A stretch of DNA of 44,027 nt from Chloroflexota bacterium. GTDB taxonomy: Bacteria > Chloroflexota > UBA11872. The stretch is taken from contig JAPPLN010000100.1 in NCBI GenBank assembly GCA_028874175.1, positions 1-44,027 on the forward strand, given 5' to 3'. The position numbers and the translations under genes are program-made. The notes beneath the pieces are model-generated. The model was not told the DNA's origin and ran no database searches. It was given only the letters and a program-made list of their open reading frames with translations. Of this stretch, positions 5,640 through 11,834 are shown piece after piece. How positions within the stretch are numbered: the first letter of the stretch is position 1; every line of letters begins with the position of its first letter.

Positions 5640-6542
5640 ATGCAGGTAGCGCTGTCCGGGCTGCTGTTTGACCACGCGCCGGCCGCCGAGTTCGCCGCCG
5701 CGGCGCGGGAGATTGGCTACGGCAGCGTGGAGCTCCGCGGCACGCGTCACCAGCTCCCGCCTGACGCGGATGCCGCGCGCCTTGAGATCCTCCTGGAACT
5801 CTTCGAGGGGCTGGAGATCGCCAACATCGCCTCCCACGCCGGCAACTTCGCGCTGCTGGACGAGGCCGAAGCACGAGAAGCCCGAAAGACCGCGCACCGA
5901 TTCCTGACTTGGGCCGCCGTGCTGGGGGCTCGTAGCGTGCGGGTCTGGCCGGGCTGGGTGGCGGCCCCGGAAGCCGAGCCCGAGCACTGGGAACGAGCCG
6001 CGCGCCACCTGCGGTGGTGCGCCGACGCGGCGGCTGATCTGGATGTGATGGTGGCGATTGAGATGCATCACGGATCGCTGGCCGAAACGGCGGCCGGCGC
6101 CAACCGGCTGCTGGACGAGATTGATCGCCCGGCCGTTGGCCTGATTCTCGATCCGGCCAATCTGATGCAGACGCCTACGCCGTTCGGGCCTCGCTGCGTC
6201 GGTGCGGTTTGGGACCGGCTGCTGCACGTGCACGTCAAGGATCACTCCATCGTCGGCTCCACCGAGCTCGGGGCATACCCGTTTCGCCTCTACCTCGAGC
6301 ACATCGGCAGCTGGATCGAGCGCATGGAACCGCCGCGCCGCCGGCTGGGTCCTGGGTGGTTCGCCAAGCGGGCGCTGGGTGAAGGCCACGTGCCCTGGCC
6401 GTCGATCCTGGCCGAGTTGAAGCGCCGCGGCTATACCGGACACTTAATCGTCGAGTCGGAGGTCGGACCCGGCGTGCCCACCGGGCGTACGCTGGCCGAG
6501 CGCGAATTCAAGACCATGAGCCATTGGATCGAGGCGCTGTGA
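5640..6542 (+). CDS. Sugar phosphate isomerase/epimerase-like TIM barrel protein
   Basis: The 300-residue protein has the AP-endonuclease-2/xylose-isomerase-like barrel pattern: SVELRG early, IASHAGNFALL (about 60-72), VAIEMHHG (about 140), LILDPANLM (about 175) and HVHVKDH (about 200), with Glu, Asp and His residues placed to bind a divalent metal, then a late GHLIVESE strand. Members isomerise or epimerise sugars, inositols or related compounds; the substrate cannot be read from sequence. The ATG at 5640 gives a normal family start. Its TGA overlaps the GTG start of the next gene (GTGA at 6539-6542), so the two are probably translated together. Confidence 0.85.
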   Translation: MQVALSGLLFDHAPAAEFAAAAREIGYGSVELRGTRHQLPPDADAARLEILLELFEGLEIANIASHAGNFALLDEAEAREARKTAHRFLTWAAVLGARSVRVWPGWVAAPEAEPEHWERAARHLRWCADAAADLDVMVAIEMHHGSLAETAAGANRLLDEIDRPAVGLILDPANLMQTPTPFGPRCVGAVWDRLLHVHVKDHSIVGSTELGAYPFRLYLEHIGSWIERMEPPRRRLGPGWFAKRALGEGHVPWPSILAELKRRGYTGHLIVESEVGPGVPTGRTLAEREFKTMSHWIEAL

Positions 6543-7483
6543 CCGATCTGGACACGCGGCCCCTGGAAGCGGCGTACCTGCCCGCCGCGGCGGCGCTGTG
6601 CCGGCGCGAGATTGCGTACCTGCCCTTCTCGGAGGCCATCCTCCAGGACCGCATCCTGGACGATCCCGACTTCGACCCGGACCTCAATCCGACGGTCTGG
6701 CAGGGCGAGCGACTGGTTGCCATGGCCTGCGGAGCGCCGCCGAGCGAGGAGTTGCAGACGGCCGGCGGCGTGAAGCTATTTGCCGTCGCGAGTGACGTGC
6801 GCCGCCAGGGCATTGCGTCTCGAATGTTCGACCAGATCGAGAACCGGCTGGCCAGCCTGGGCGCCGGCGAGTCCGTGGCGATCATCGCCGGCAACAACCG
6901 GTTCATGCAGGGCCTGGACCTGCGCTACACGGAGGCGTTGTGCTTCCTGGAAGCGCACGGCTACGAGCGCGCGGGCGACGGGATGGACATGGACGTGGAC
7001 CTGCGCAACACGCCGCTGGACACTGCGGACAAGGAAAAGGAGCTAGAGCGCGACCACGGCCTGCGCGTGCGTCGGCTGACGATGGACGACTACCAGCAAG
7101 CCTGGGACTACGTGGCGCGCGAGTTCGAGTACCCCAGCGCCTTGGCCAGCGACCCCGTCGGGCGGCGCTGGGCCTACCTGGCAACCTCGGGCCTGAAGCT
7201 CGACCCGCCGACCTTGTGGATGGCCGAGAAGGACGGCGAGTTCTGCGGCTTCGCCGTCACTGACGTGGCCGCGCCCGAGCGCCTGGGGCCGATGGGCGTC
7301 TCACCCGAGGTCCGCAAGCTGGGCGTGGGCACGGTGCTGCTGAAGCGCGCGCTGGCCGACCTCCGGGCGCGGGGCGTGGAGACCGGCGTAATCTACGGGG
7401 CCGGGCCGTACGCCTTCTACGCCCGCACCGTCAACGCGACCGTCAACGCCGTCTTCTGGCGCCTGCGCAAGCCGCTGCCGTAG
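6539..7483 (+). CDS. Tandem GNAT-family acetyltransferase
   Basis: This 314-residue protein carries two GNAT domains in a row. The acetyl-CoA-binding motif is seen twice: VASDVRRQGIASRMF near residue 85 and VSPEVRKLGVGTVLL near residue 260. The general layout is that of two-domain N-acetyltransferases such as MshD-like proteins, but no substrate-defining residues are recognised. The first in-frame start is a TTG at 6524; the GTG at 6539 is preferred because it overlaps the upstream TGA as GTGA. Coupling to a sugar-isomerase-like gene hints at acetylation of an amino sugar or its product, which is inference. Confidence 0.8.
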   Translation: MTDLDTRPLEAAYLPAAAALCRREIAYLPFSEAILQDRILDDPDFDPDLNPTVWQGERLVAMACGAPPSEELQTAGGVKLFAVASDVRRQGIASRMFDQIENRLASLGAGESVAIIAGNNRFMQGLDLRYTEALCFLEAHGYERAGDGMDMDVDLRNTPLDTADKEKELERDHGLRVRRLTMDDYQQAWDYVAREFEYPSALASDPVGRRWAYLATSGLKLDPPTLWMAEKDGEFCGFAVTDVAAPERLGPMGVSPEVRKLGVGTVLLKRALADLRARGVETGVIYGAGPYAFYARTVNATVNAVFWRLRKPLP

Positions 7484-7498
7484 ATCCGCTGCTCGCAA

Positions 7499-7514
7499 TG
7501 TTTCACGTGAAACA
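7499..7514. other. parS: parS centromere site 1 (ParB binding)
   Basis: TGTTTCACGTGAAACA is a perfect 16-bp palindrome and is the classic chromosomal parS sequence bound by ParB/Spo0J. It lies in the gap between the GNAT gene and the aminotransferase gene and is flanked by one further A/T pair, giving an 18-bp palindrome (7498-7515). Confidence 0.93.
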
Positions 7515-7550
7515 TTGCCGCCACACCTGACCAATCCCGGAGGCGGGCGA

Positions 7551-7566
7551 TGTTTCACGTGAAACA
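7551..7566. other. parS: parS centromere site 2 (ParB binding)
   Basis: A second identical TGTTTCACGTGAAACA palindrome starts 52 bp after the first, about five helical turns, so both face the same side of the DNA. Paired exact parS copies in a non-coding gap are very unlikely by chance. No parA or parB gene is in the window. Confidence 0.93.
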
Positions 7567-7628
7567 TCGGGCCAGATTCATCCGGTGCTAGGCTCCCTCG
7601 CGCGAGTCGCCGGTAGGGATTCCTCGAT

Positions 7629-8552
7629 ATGAGCGCGAGCACCTGGGCTTATTCGAACGGTGAGATCGTCCCGCTGGAGCAGGCCCGCTACTGGCCGAAT
7701 GACCTGGCGATCATCTACGGCGAGATCGTCTACGAGGCCACGCGCACGTTCGGCGGACAGCCGTTCAAGCTGAAGGAGCACATCGACCGGCTCTACCGCT
7801 CGCTGCACTACTGCCGCCTGGACCCGGGCCTGACGCCCGAGGAACTGACCGAGGTCACGCTTCAGGTCGTCGAGCGCAACCGCCCTGACCTGCCCGAGGG
7901 CAGCGACACCTGGATCTTTCACAACATCACCCGCGGCTCGCACCCGCAATTCCCGGGCGTGGGGCGCGGCGACGCCGGGCCCTCGGTGTTGGTGTGGACG
8001 CACGAGTTGGGCTTCAAGTACTGGTACCGCTACTACGAGGAGGGCGCGCACTGCGTGACGCCCTCGATCCGCCAGGTCAACATCGCCACCCAGGATCCGC
8101 GCATGAAGACGCGCAGCCGCATGTTCCTGGCGCTGGCGGAGCAGGAAGTGAACGCCCTGGCTCCCGGGGCCTACACGCTGCTGCTTGACGACGAGGGTCG
8201 CATCGCCGAGGGCACCGGCGCCAACTTCATGCTGGTGTCCGACGGCGCCATCCTGACCCCGCGCACCGGCACCGGCCTGGCCGGCGTCAGCCTCGCCACC
8301 GTCCGCGAGTTGAGCCTGGACCTGGGCGTGGACGTCCGAGAGGCCGACCTGACCCTCTACGACGTCTTCAACGCCGACGAAGCCTTCCTCAGCAGCACCC
8401 CCTATTGCCTGCTACCAGTCACCCGCGTCAACGGCACCCAGGTCGGCAACGGCCAACCCGGGGAGTTGTTTGCCCGCCTGATTGACGCCTGGAGCGAAAC
8501 GGTTGGCGTCAACATCATCGACCAGGCCCGGAGGCTGGGCGAAGCGACCTAA
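7629..8552 (+). CDS. Class IV PLP aminotransferase (branched-chain aminotransferase / ADC lyase-like)
   Basis: The 307-residue protein belongs to the fold-type IV PLP enzymes: GEIVYEATRTFGG and FKLKEHIDRLYRS at the N-terminus, a likely Schiff-base lysine in PRMKTRSRM (about residue 159), EGTGANFMLV (about 195) and TGTGLAGVSLATV (about 215) around the cofactor phosphate, and DEAFLSSTPYCLLPV late in the chain. These enzymes include branched-chain and D-amino-acid aminotransferases and aminodeoxychorismate lyase; specificity is not clear. The ATG at 7629 lies 63 bp after the second parS. The last 21 codons and the following 60 bp are found again at 11042-11165, ahead of the fourth YIP1 gene. Confidence 0.87.
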   Translation: MSASTWAYSNGEIVPLEQARYWPNDLAIIYGEIVYEATRTFGGQPFKLKEHIDRLYRSLHYCRLDPGLTPEELTEVTLQVVERNRPDLPEGSDTWIFHNITRGSHPQFPGVGRGDAGPSVLVWTHELGFKYWYRYYEEGAHCVTPSIRQVNIATQDPRMKTRSRMFLALAEQEVNALAPGAYTLLLDDEGRIAEGTGANFMLVSDGAILTPRTGTGLAGVSLATVRELSLDLGVDVREADLTLYDVFNADEAFLSSTPYCLLPVTRVNGTQVGNGQPGELFARLIDAWSETVGVNIIDQARRLGEAT

Positions 8553-8615: not shown

Positions 8616-9512
8616 ATGGGTAGCGGCTTCATCAACCGGCTGCTCCGCGCCCTGCGGCTGGACCCGACGCTCTACCGCGAAGTCGCCGCGCCCGGCGCCA
8701 GCACCGAGCAGGCCGCGCTAGTCGTCATCCTCGCCGCGGTCGGCTTTAGTTTTGCGCAGAGCGCGCGATCACTGGTCTCCTGGCTGAGTTCTTCGGGAAG
8801 TTTCTGGTGGTCGGGTCTAACGACTACCGAGGCCAATGCGTGGATTGCCATGGACCTTGAGAACTATCGAGTCGTGGTCCGCGTCCTGGCGCTGGTCGCG
8901 GCCTGGCCGGTCTGGGCTGCCGGGCTCTGGCTGGTCAGTAAGCGAATGAGCGCGTCGCGCGGCCAGGCGCCAGGATTCGGTCAGGTCGCCCGCGTCCTGG
9001 CGTTCGCGCAGGCGCCGGGCGTGTTCGGCCCAGCTCTCCTGCTTCCAACCACGGTCGGCGCCGCCCTTGTTCTTTCCCAGACAGGCTGGCTGCAGGCGTA
9101 CATGGCCCCTCCCGCGAACTTGGCGTTCCTGGACTTTCTGGTGGGGGTGGGTTGGCCGCTGCTTCTAGTCTGGGTTTTCCTTGGGAGCCTGGTAGCTCTT
9201 CGGGAAGGGCTAGGGCTGAGCGGCGGCCAGGCGCTGGGCGCGTTGATCATCGTGGGGGCTGGCCTGGCGGTGCTGCTGGGCCTGGTCGTTACCGTTGGGA
9301 GCGTCGTCGCCGCCGCCGTCGGCGCGGTGCCTGAGGCCTTCGGGCTCGAACCGCGGGTACCCGTCGGGCTGGACCACGGCGACGCCATCGCCGCGCAGGT
9401 CGCGCCCTTTATCCCCTACCTCACCGCGTTCCAGTTTGACTTCAACCTCGGCCTGCACTTCGGCCCCTCGCTCATGAGCAGCCTTGGCCAGGCGCTGGCA
9501 ACGATCCGGTAG
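8616..9512 (+). CDS. YIP1-family membrane protein, copy 1
   Basis: A 298-residue integral membrane protein with about five hydrophobic segments. It opens with a conserved amphipathic stretch (INRLLRALRLDPTLYREVAAPG), then membrane spans, a VAAWPVWAAGLWLV span, a GFGQVARVLAFAQAPG loop, a LREGLGLSGGQALG motif and a final FDFNLGLHFG. The pattern fits the YIP1 domain. Function in bacteria is not established; roles in membrane organisation have been suggested for the family. Start at the ATG 8616, chosen because copy 4 starts at the same point. First of four related genes in a row. Confidence 0.75.
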   Translation: MGSGFINRLLRALRLDPTLYREVAAPGASTEQAALVVILAAVGFSFAQSARSLVSWLSSSGSFWWSGLTTTEANAWIAMDLENYRVVVRVLALVAAWPVWAAGLWLVSKRMSASRGQAPGFGQVARVLAFAQAPGVFGPALLLPTTVGAALVLSQTGWLQAYMAPPANLAFLDFLVGVGWPLLLVWVFLGSLVALREGLGLSGGQALGALIIVGAGLAVLLGLVVTVGSVVAAAVGAVPEAFGLEPRVPVGLDHGDAIAAQVAPFIPYLTAFQFDFNLGLHFGPSLMSSLGQALATIR

Positions 9513-9541
9513 CGCGTCGCGTGAAACGGAGAACAGCGGCC

Positions 9542-10147
9542 ATGGACGCCAGCTTGTCTGGCAGGCTCGGTGAACGAATGTGCGCTGCTGCGCTGCTGGC
9601 GCACTCTCTTTACCGTAATGTCGCCGGCGACGGCCGCAATATCCTGGAAACGGTCCTCGTCGTCCTGGTCGCCGCTCTGGGCTTTGGCGTGTCGACTTTC
9701 CTGGGCGGGGCGTCCGCGGGATCGCTGGCTACGGGCCTGTTGGCCGGGATCGTATTGGAGCCGCTGGTCACGCTGGCCGCTTGGCTGGGCGGATCCTTCG
9801 CGGCCTGGCTTGTCGGCGCACGATTGGCGCCGGCCGAGGCCAAGTCCATACGGTTCTGGACGGTGGCGCGGGTGTTGGTGTTCGCTCAGACGCCGAATCT
9901 GGCCGGTGTGCTGGTGATTCTTCCGCCCCCGTACACGAGCGGGGTCTGGCTGATGGCCAGGCTGTGGCTGCTGGCAGCAACCTCAACGGCAATCCGCGAA
10001 TCGCTGGGACTGAGCGGCGGGCGAGTGCTGGTGACGCTGGCTGTGAGCGCGGCGGTCTATGCGGCGCTTCTGGTCGGAATCTTCTCAGCGATCGCGAGCC
10101 TTGATGTAGGCAGGGTTACGAGCGTTCACGGCATCGGAGGGCTGTAG
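9542..10147 (+). CDS. YIP1-family membrane protein, copy 2 (short)
   Basis: A 201-residue membrane protein sharing the order of copy 1: SLYRNVAGDG at the start, a VTLAAWLGGSFAAWLVGARLAP span, ARVLVFAQTPN and IRESLGLSGGRVLVTLAV. It is the most divergent copy and lacks the final DFNLGL motif. A GTG at 9521 is also in frame; the ATG at 9542 is preferred, with a GGAG upstream. It starts 29 bp after copy 1 stops, so the two probably share a transcript. Confidence 0.7.
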   Translation: MDASLSGRLGERMCAAALLAHSLYRNVAGDGRNILETVLVVLVAALGFGVSTFLGGASAGSLATGLLAGIVLEPLVTLAAWLGGSFAAWLVGARLAPAEAKSIRFWTVARVLVFAQTPNLAGVLVILPPPYTSGVWLMARLWLLAATSTAIRESLGLSGGRVLVTLAVSAAVYAALLVGIFSAIASLDVGRVTSVHGIGGL

Positions 10148-10213
10148 TGCCGGGTTCTGGCAGCGGACGCCTGCCCGCCCGGCATGGCCTAGGAATCCTG
10201 GGGTTTAGCCGCA

Positions 10214-11032
10214 ATGGCCACTAGGGCGTATAGCGGCCTCGCTGGCCACATGATCCGCGCCCTAAGCTTGGATTCAAGACTGTTCCGTGAAGTCGCGGCT
10301 CCCGGTGGCAATTGGCAGGCGGCAGCGGTGGTTGTGGTCGCGGCTCTAATTTCCGGAATCGGTTGGGGTGCCGTGTCGCTCGTCAACTTGGCGAGGTCCG
10401 ACACAGCCGGTATGGATCTTGGCTCGGTCGTGTCGCAGTCTGCTTTCCCCAATGCCATTGTTCTCGCTTTCGCCCACCTCATAGCCTGGCCGGTATGGGC
10501 CATGGGACTCTGGGTCGTTGGGACGCATTGGGCGCCGGCTGACCGACCGCCGCCGTGGTTTGGCCAGATCGCCCGCGCTCTGGCGCTCGCCCAGGCGCCG
10601 GCCGCGTTGGGCGCGCTGTACGTGCTCCTGGTCGTGATCGTCGGATTCGCTCGAGGGCCCGAAGGGCTCCGCTCCGGCGTCGTGTGGGTCACGGAGTTCT
10701 GGCTATTTGTCCTGATTGGAGCCTGGGTGCTCGCGGGGACCTTTCTGGCCGTTCGCGAGGCACTGGGGCTAAGCAGCGCCCGGACCTTTGTTGCACTGGT
10801 TGCCGTCGGGCTGGCTATCGCGGCGTTGTTGGGACTCACTGTCGTCGTGCTCAGCGGCATTGCGGGACGGGAGTTTGTGGGCCTGAACGACGACGATTTC
10901 GGATTCAGGGACGACGGTGCCACGGCAATGGATGTCGCCCTGGGACTTGACTTTAACCTCCGTTTCGTCGGCCCGTGCAACACGATCCTGCATCTCTTGT
11001 CCAGATCGGTCTTACATCCCTTTGCCTACTAG
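10214..11032 (+). CDS. YIP1-family membrane protein, copy 3
   Basis: A 272-residue membrane protein with the array's common pattern: MIRALSLDSRLFREVAAPGG, a HLIAWPVWAMGLWVVGTHWAP span, FGQIARALALAQAPAALG, VREALGLSSARTFVAL and a late LDFNLRFVGP. The extra C-terminal tail (about 15 residues) differs from the other copies. The start is the ATG at 10214. It ends 9 bp before the duplicated aminotransferase tail at 11042. Confidence 0.72.
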   Translation: MATRAYSGLAGHMIRALSLDSRLFREVAAPGGNWQAAAVVVVAALISGIGWGAVSLVNLARSDTAGMDLGSVVSQSAFPNAIVLAFAHLIAWPVWAMGLWVVGTHWAPADRPPPWFGQIARALALAQAPAALGALYVLLVVIVGFARGPEGLRSGVVWVTEFWLFVLIGAWVLAGTFLAVREALGLSSARTFVALVAVGLAIAALLGLTVVVLSGIAGREFVGLNDDDFGFRDDGATAMDVALGLDFNLRFVGPCNTILHLLSRSVLHPFAY

Positions 11033-11041
11033 GGCGCCAGG

Positions 11042-11104
11042 TGGAGCGAAGCAGTCGGTCTGAACATCATCGACCAGGTCGGCAGACCCGGCGCAGCGAC
11101 CTAA
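11042..11104 (+). pseudogene. Duplicated 3' tail of the aminotransferase gene
   Basis: These 63 bases read WSEAVGLNIIDQVGRPGAAT and a stop, matching the aminotransferase C-terminus (WSETVGVNIIDQARRLGEAT, 8490-8552). The stop is followed by 61 bp resembling the aminotransferase-YIP1 spacer, and then by a YIP1 gene. The distance from the shared TGG to the YIP1 ATG is 126 bp in the first copy and 124 bp here. It is a non-functional leftover of a block duplication. Confidence 0.85.
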
Positions 11105-11165
11105 CGGTCCCAGGCGGCGCGTGCCAGACTGACCGATTTGGGCGGCGCGTGGAATGAGGCCAGCC

Positions 11166-11834
11166 ATGGGCAATGGCTTGATCAACCGGCTGCTCCGCGC
11201 CCTGCGGCTGGACGCGAGCCTCTACCGCGAGGTGTCGGCGCCTGACGGCGATACCCGGCAGGCGGCGCTGGTGGTTCTGCTGACGGCTGTAGCCGCCGGT
11301 GCCGAGGGCGTCTGGGTAAGTGTCAGCGGTGCCGGCCTTATCGCCATAACGCATGTAGCCGCCTGGCCGGTCTGGGCAGCAGGGATTTGGCTGGTTGGCG
11401 CGCGACTGAAGGCACCCAATGGCGAGGCGTCGGGATTCGGGCAAGTCGCTCGCGCTATCGCGTTCGCACAGGCGCCGGGCGTCTTCTTCGCGACAAGCCT
11501 CGTCCTCTTTTGGATCTCGGCGCCGCTCTGGGGCACGGTTCGGACGCTGATCTCAGTGTGGGTCGTCATTGGGACCTTTCTCGCCATTCGGGAGACGTTG
11601 GGGCTAAGCAACGGTCGAACGCTCGGGACGCTGTTCGGCGTGGGCGCGGCTATTGCAGTTCTGCTGGGGCCGGTGAGCGTTTTCGCCACCTTCTGGGCTC
11701 TTTTCCCTCGGCATTCGATCGGCGGAATCGTCGCGACCGTCTCGTACGGGTTGTTTGACTTCAACCTCGGACTCGGGCTCATCCGCGCGGTAACCCGCCT
11801 CGTCCTGCCCGCCGCGATAGAACTCGTCGTGTAG
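11166..11834 (+). CDS. YIP1-family membrane protein, copy 4
   Basis: A 222-residue membrane protein that is closest to copy 1: it begins MGNGLINRLLRALRLDASL and has THVAAWPVWAAGIWLVGARL, GFGQVARAIAFAQAPG, IRETLGLSNGRTLGTL and a final FDFNLGLGL. An ATG at 11154 is in frame, but the match to copy 1 places the start at 11166. The upstream spacer is also shared with copy 1. It is shorter than copy 1 because the loop between the first two spans is reduced. Confidence 0.75.
   Translation: MGNGLINRLLRALRLDASLYREVSAPDGDTRQAALVVLLTAVAAGAEGVWVSVSGAGLIAITHVAAWPVWAAGIWLVGARLKAPNGEASGFGQVARAIAFAQAPGVFFATSLVLFWISAPLWGTVRTLISVWVVIGTFLAIRETLGLSNGRTLGTLFGVGAAIAVLLGPVSVFATFWALFPRHSIGGIVATVSYGLFDFNLGLGLIRAVTRLVLPAAIELVV

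Follow-up and report, generated by a model that had tools for sequence, protein, structure and literature searches.

In the window, a stretch of 44,027 nucleotides from a Chloroflexota bacterium of the lineage UBA11872 (assembly GCA_028874175.1, contig JAPPLN010000100.1, positions 1 to 44,027), two exact copies of the bacterial centromere sequence parS (TGTTTCACGTGAAACA) share one intergenic gap. These palindromes are predicted to be loading sites of the single ParB protein of this genome, which likely loads the SMC condensin around the replication origin rather than being pulled by ParA (probability about 0.7). This reading rests on the absence of parA beside parB and of the ParA-binding motif from ParB; without ParA and the docking peptide, SMC loading is the remaining function that fits.

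A preliminary description of the window had placed two perfect parS matches, about five helical turns apart, between a GNAT gene and an aminotransferase gene, and both statements were confirmed (Table 1). The sites start 52 bp apart, corresponding to 4.95 turns at 10.5 bp per turn, and are separated by 36 bp. Both are exact 16-bp inverted repeats of GTTTCAC, a sequence named as the parS half-site (PMC7022226). No further match with up to three mismatches was found elsewhere in the window. In shuffled windows 0.04 copies were expected, and two copies occurred in none of 100 shuffles. The sequence thus supports the interpretation of the palindromes as parS.

The draft genome (3,317,809 bases in 121 contigs, 92% complete) contains 22 perfect copies, one further copy with one mismatch and one with two mismatches, compared to approximately 7e-5 copies expected from base composition. 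Nineteen of the 22 perfect sites are intergenic, whereas intergenic sequence makes up 14% of the genome according to our own gene calls; these calls, also used for the contig carrying dnaA and parB and for the ftsZ locus, were made by a codon-usage script rather than an annotation pipeline. All 22 copies are preceded by A and followed by T, so that the parS unit in this genome is an 18-mer. The scarcity of imperfect copies and the fixed flanks point to strong selection for an 18-bp palindrome. The flanks are not universal: both copies in the same-genus genome G052, as well as several found in the sister genus and in the order, differ on one or both sides. The term "stand-alone centromere sites", used in the preliminary description, therefore needs to be narrowed. 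As noted there, neither parA nor parB is in view in the window, but the pair is part of a set of 22 sites, and parB is located on another contig.

The ParB homologue on which a parS assignment depends is encoded in the genome, with one PF02195 match (E 2.8e-26, C107:46924). The CTP-binding box GERRWRA is present, and the helix-turn-helix (HTH) region retains Q162, G170, S172, R173, N178, and R204 of Caulobacter ParB, as read in the own sequence through the Caulobacter alignment of a 97%-identical ParB. For the latter protein the TIGR00180 score was 148.2 bits (cut-off 58.45). R173 goes with binding of parS rather than of the Noc site, and Noc carries Q at this position (PMC7383237). An identity as Noc, with its NBS target, was considered and rejected: the combination Q173 and R201 was not found, the protein having R173 and S201, and the score of the Noc model lies below its cut-off. 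One perfect parS starts a single base beyond the stop codon of parB (Table 1). This copy (C107:47683-47700; L079:7683-7700) doubles as the start of a rhomboid-like open reading frame (ORF), being read as ATG TTT CAC GTG AAA CAT (MFHVKH); the ORF has a weak rhombosortase match. Palindromic operators are common in bacteria, and the repeat could serve some transcription factor unrelated to ParB as its operator, or be a product of chance. We regard this as hardly credible given the exact parS sequence, the copy directly behind parB, the excess of 22 copies over the expectation, and the parS-type R173 in the single ParB.

Among the matches listed (down to about E 3e-7), no ParA-type protein (PF13614) was found next to parB in 12 of the 13 genus genomes, the exception being G003; for G009, the contig end near parB was left unchecked. 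Outside the genus, 28 genomes were sampled. In 23 of the 24 that carry parB, a ParA-type match directly precedes it, and G033 is the only one without a parA match on the parB contig. No ParB match was found in the remaining G019, G021, G029, and G039. Two of these, G019 and G021 (same order; 2.3 and 1.9 Mb; >90% complete), also have no parS with up to one mismatch and may have lost the whole ParB-parS system. Between dnaA and parB the own contig has no break, and G002, a same-genus genome, is one complete chromosome, so the absence of parA is not an assembly gap. Among the matches listed, the parA gene that a complete ParABS system carries in the parB operon is missing.

ParB proteins bind ParA through an N-terminal peptide (PMC12462528), for which the motif (L/F/I)G(K/R)G(L/F/I) has been defined (PMC12704722). 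The N-terminus of the own ParB lacks this second element of a complete ParABS system. Among the best 120 of 7719 homologues, the motif occurred in none of the 37 ParBs of its clade that could be judged (at least 68% identity), in all eight at 52.5-68% identity, and in 53 of 56 below, that is, in 61 of the 64 more distant usable sequences. Proteins with N-termini too short to judge were excluded (15 of 52, 0 of 8, and 4 of 60, respectively). Of the three distant exceptions, P0059 and P0079 deviate from the motif at one residue, and P0094 begins too far downstream to include it. Contigs longer than 3 Mb occur in the ParB clusters P0004, P0014, P0031, P0033, P0034, and P0042. In a ParB tree of 39 rows (26 of the 120 listed homologues and 13 proteins from the genomes), G002 groups with motif-bearing ParBs on a long branch (support 81/77). 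A single loss of the motif is not shown by this tree; from the position of G002, the motif may have been lost twice.

SMC and ScpA, two partners expected for streptococcal-type SMC loading by ParB without ParA, are present. SMC (PF02463) was detected in all ten genomes searched and ScpA in all six; the own genes are located at C17:8671-12138 and C96:29215-29835, respectively.

The preliminary description had noted that such sites often lie close to the origin, and the placed copies agree with this. As reference we used OY282448.1, a complete chromosome of 3.00 Mb from the same genus (G052, which appears to be identical to assembly G002). Its dnaA is located at 0.80 Mb and its parB at 0.798-0.799 Mb. 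Positions were obtained by tblastn with ORFs of the draft genome against a sample of every second 20 kb. For 21 of the 22 sites a position was obtained, with a median distance to dnaA of 0.28 Mb out of a possible 1.5 Mb; the distance is at most 0.5 Mb for 13 of them and at most 0.75 Mb for 18. The unplaced site (C84:16269) has no placed gene within 15 kb. The perfect copies are not spread evenly either, being confined to 12 of the 121 contigs, which together amount to 798 kb (24% of the genome). Counted by contig, 11 of these 12 were placed, with a median of 0.50 Mb from dnaA versus 0.95 Mb for 20 control contigs (p = 0.009). Of 35 controls sampled, 15 had no match, and one placed control, C20, holds the site with one mismatch. 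In the reference, the aminotransferase gene that adjoins the window pair is 20 kb away from dnaA, and further segments of the window fall at 0.57 and 1.20 Mb; gene order has therefore been reshuffled and the distances are approximate. Clustering in the origin region was thus found on a relative's map of a draft genome, with approximate positions and the origin assumed at dnaA. The two parS sites of OY282448.1 itself are located at 839 and 850 kb, approximately 40-50 kb from its dnaA.

Sampled at every second 20 kb, the GC skew of OY282448.1 turns twice, at a maximum (0.84-0.96 Mb) and, about 1.5 Mb away, at a minimum (about 2.4 Mb). As origin markers, the skew, the coding strand (plus-strand fractions of 0.497 and 0.490 for the arms), and 22 tRNA genes did not settle the polarity, so that distances are given from dnaA and not from a proved oriC. 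In the sampled pieces of this chromosome (L085-L159), dnaA, parB, and the parS sites all lie near the skew maximum, and neither arm has a coding-strand bias. This would mean that the lineage has an inverted skew polarity or that its origin lies away from dnaA.

Site numbers, counted with up to one mismatch, differ strongly between relatives. Eleven of the 12 genus genomes without ParA carry 7-23 sites, and the twelfth, G002, carries two. G003, the member with parA, has none, but this genome is only 76% complete. Six genomes of the sister genus, all with parA, have 1-4 sites each. In all nine genomes of the group f3 no site was found, although eight of them have parA beside parB, so that any link between parA and site number is limited to close relatives. 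As the genus genomes are related, they represent one or two events and not many. Furthermore, G041-G052 are apparently the same assemblies as G001-G012 (judged by the listed site coordinates for four, and by size and site count for the others). The simple rule that loss of parA entails many parS sites is ruled out by G002 (no parA, two sites) and G003 (parA, no site). In a literature search of limited coverage, no description of ParA loss or parS multiplication in Chloroflexota was found. The isolates named RHO, COS, and SB0662 presumably came from marine sponges.

By analogy to known ParB proteins, a ParB dimer with bound CTP would nucleate at parS, close as a clamp, and slide across neighboring genes while the next dimer takes its place. 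The two sites in the window would allow two clamps to be loaded in one gap. The clamps would recruit SMC-ScpAB, by which the origin-proximal part of the chromosome would be folded and separated. Sliding-clamp loading at parS and recruitment of SMC-ScpAB have been described for other ParBs (PMC7333895, PMC7022226). In this lineage parA would have been lost and, in most members, parS multiplied, giving a wider loading zone. A more far-reaching proposal, which we put forward tentatively and think somewhat doubtful, is that this Chloroflexota lineage exchanged a ParA-pulled centromere for a broad condensin-loading field, first dropping parA and the docking peptide of ParB and then multiplying perfect 18-bp parS sites up to 22-fold across the origin-proximal region, with site number replacing the ParA motor. 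That the multiplied sites compensate for the lost pulling is the boldest reading we infer. Why the number of parS sites ranges from 1 to >20 among bacteria is an open question (PMC7333895). Here, close relatives vary in parA, in the docking motif, and in parS number, from parA with 1-4 sites in the sister genus to no parA with 7-23 sites in most of the genus, so that a comparison among them can test how ParA pulling and SMC loading share the work.

Several observations speak against SMC loading at origin-proximal parS sites. Three sites lie approximately 0.95 Mb from dnaA in the reference, two of which are within 30 kb of dnaA on their own contig. The origin was assumed at dnaA, yet dnaA is near the maximum of the GC skew and not its minimum. 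The complete relative G002 has neither parA nor the motif, yet only two parS; loss of parA alone therefore brings no increase in sites, and the coupling between the two changes is not tight. LGKGS, one residue short of the motif, is retained in a single ParB of the clade (G048; also P0024). In the HTH region of the own ParB, position 201 is S instead of G, position 184 is a Noc-like K, and K171 is replaced by V. Among NCBIfam models, Noc matches best, although its 184.6 bits are far under the cut-off of 315. Finally, a ParA-type ATPase adjoins ftsZ in all ten genomes tested and could partner ParB.

This ATPase, the one canonical ParA-type protein that is left, has a canonical deviant Walker A motif (KGGVGKT), and its gene overlaps ftsZ on the same strand (C100:64672-66622; L083:14673-16623). 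It might have taken over as segregation motor, or might couple origin and division in the manner of MipZ, in which case ParB would still be partnered; Caulobacter MipZ binds ParB and hinders FtsZ (PMC7333895). Relatives with a parB-linked parA encode this ATPase as well; compared with five of those ParAs it shows an identity of only 32-38%, so in these genomes it probably does something else. As the own ParB also lacks the N-terminal ParA-binding motif, we consider such a partnership unlikely. The ATPase may be a division-site regulator. Loading of SMC by ParB remains the preferred explanation.

At the aminotransferase locus, site 2 starts 78 bp ahead of the ATG, and a TAGGCTC element between them is conserved in all 12 relatives examined (the closest 12 of 38 related loci), which places site 2 just upstream of a likely promoter. 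A site at exactly the same distance was found in ten of these loci (six perfect, three with one outer mismatch, and one with two mismatches). ParB bound there could mainly regulate the aminotransferase gene, like the ParB-like VirB, which acts upstream of its target promoters (PMC10770331). The loci L028 and L029, the two most distant of the 12, keep the promoter-like block without any site upstream of the aminotransferase. Moreover, the 22 sites occur between genes of all orientations, including convergent pairs (C71:25342, C91:83746, C111:6175), and cluster by chromosome position. A mainly regulatory role thus appears very improbable. A second site 52 bp upstream was found in the own genome, in L019 (with one mismatch), and in L020 as a decayed remnant. 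In L021 and L022, a single parS (L021:2156, L022:9923) fuses the left flank of site 1 with the right flank of site 2, as deletion or recombination between two parS copies would leave. Downstream in the window (8616-11834), four consecutive ORFs code for membrane proteins of the multi-pass type; they resemble each other on visual inspection and are perhaps a tandem gene family.

Table 1. Features around the parS pair in the window (plain positions) and at the dnaA-parB locus (C107).
Feature	Position	Strand	Remark
GNAT-like acetyltransferase ORF	6539..7483	+	weak matches, under NCBIfam cut-offs
Intergenic gap with both sites	7484..7628	.	
parS site 1	7499..7514	.	TGTTTCACGTGAAACA; palindrome extends 4 further bases per side
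parS site 2	7551..7566	.	TGTTTCACGTGAAACA; palindrome extends 3 further bases per side
Promoter-like block	7586..7594	+	TGCTAGGCT; putative promoter
Aminotransferase ORF, branched-chain / D-amino-acid type	7629..8552	+	best E 6.7e-47, under curated cut-offs
dnaA	C107:44977-46341		
DnaA-box-like sequences	C107:46351, 46372		between dnaA and parB
parB	C107:46855-47682		right after dnaA
Perfect parS	C107:47684		starts one base beyond parB stop codon

The system shares with the chromosomal ParABS systems of Bacillus and Caulobacter that load SMC the 16-bp parS, a canonical ParB with GERR box and parS-type HTH, parB beside dnaA, sites near the origin, and the presence of SMC and ScpA. It differs, as far as can be read from sequence alone, in lacking both a parA gene next to parB and a ParA-binding motif in ParB. 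Similarly, the orphan ParBs described in 2025 (PMC12704722) are encoded outside a parAB operon and lack the motif (L|F|I)G[K|R]G(L|F|I), whereas the parB studied here lies at the dnaA locus of a genome with many parS; the main text of that paper contains neither the word Chloroflexota nor Chloroflexi. The number of sites near the origin resembles that in Streptomyces coelicolor and Listeria innocua (up to 20-23; PMC7333895), but here without ParA beside parB. The combination of ParB, parS, and SMC with ParA missing is that of Streptococcus pneumoniae and Staphylococcus aureus (PMC7333895, PMC7022226). Whereas S. pneumoniae has four parS near oriC, the present genome, from another phylum (Chloroflexota), has 22.
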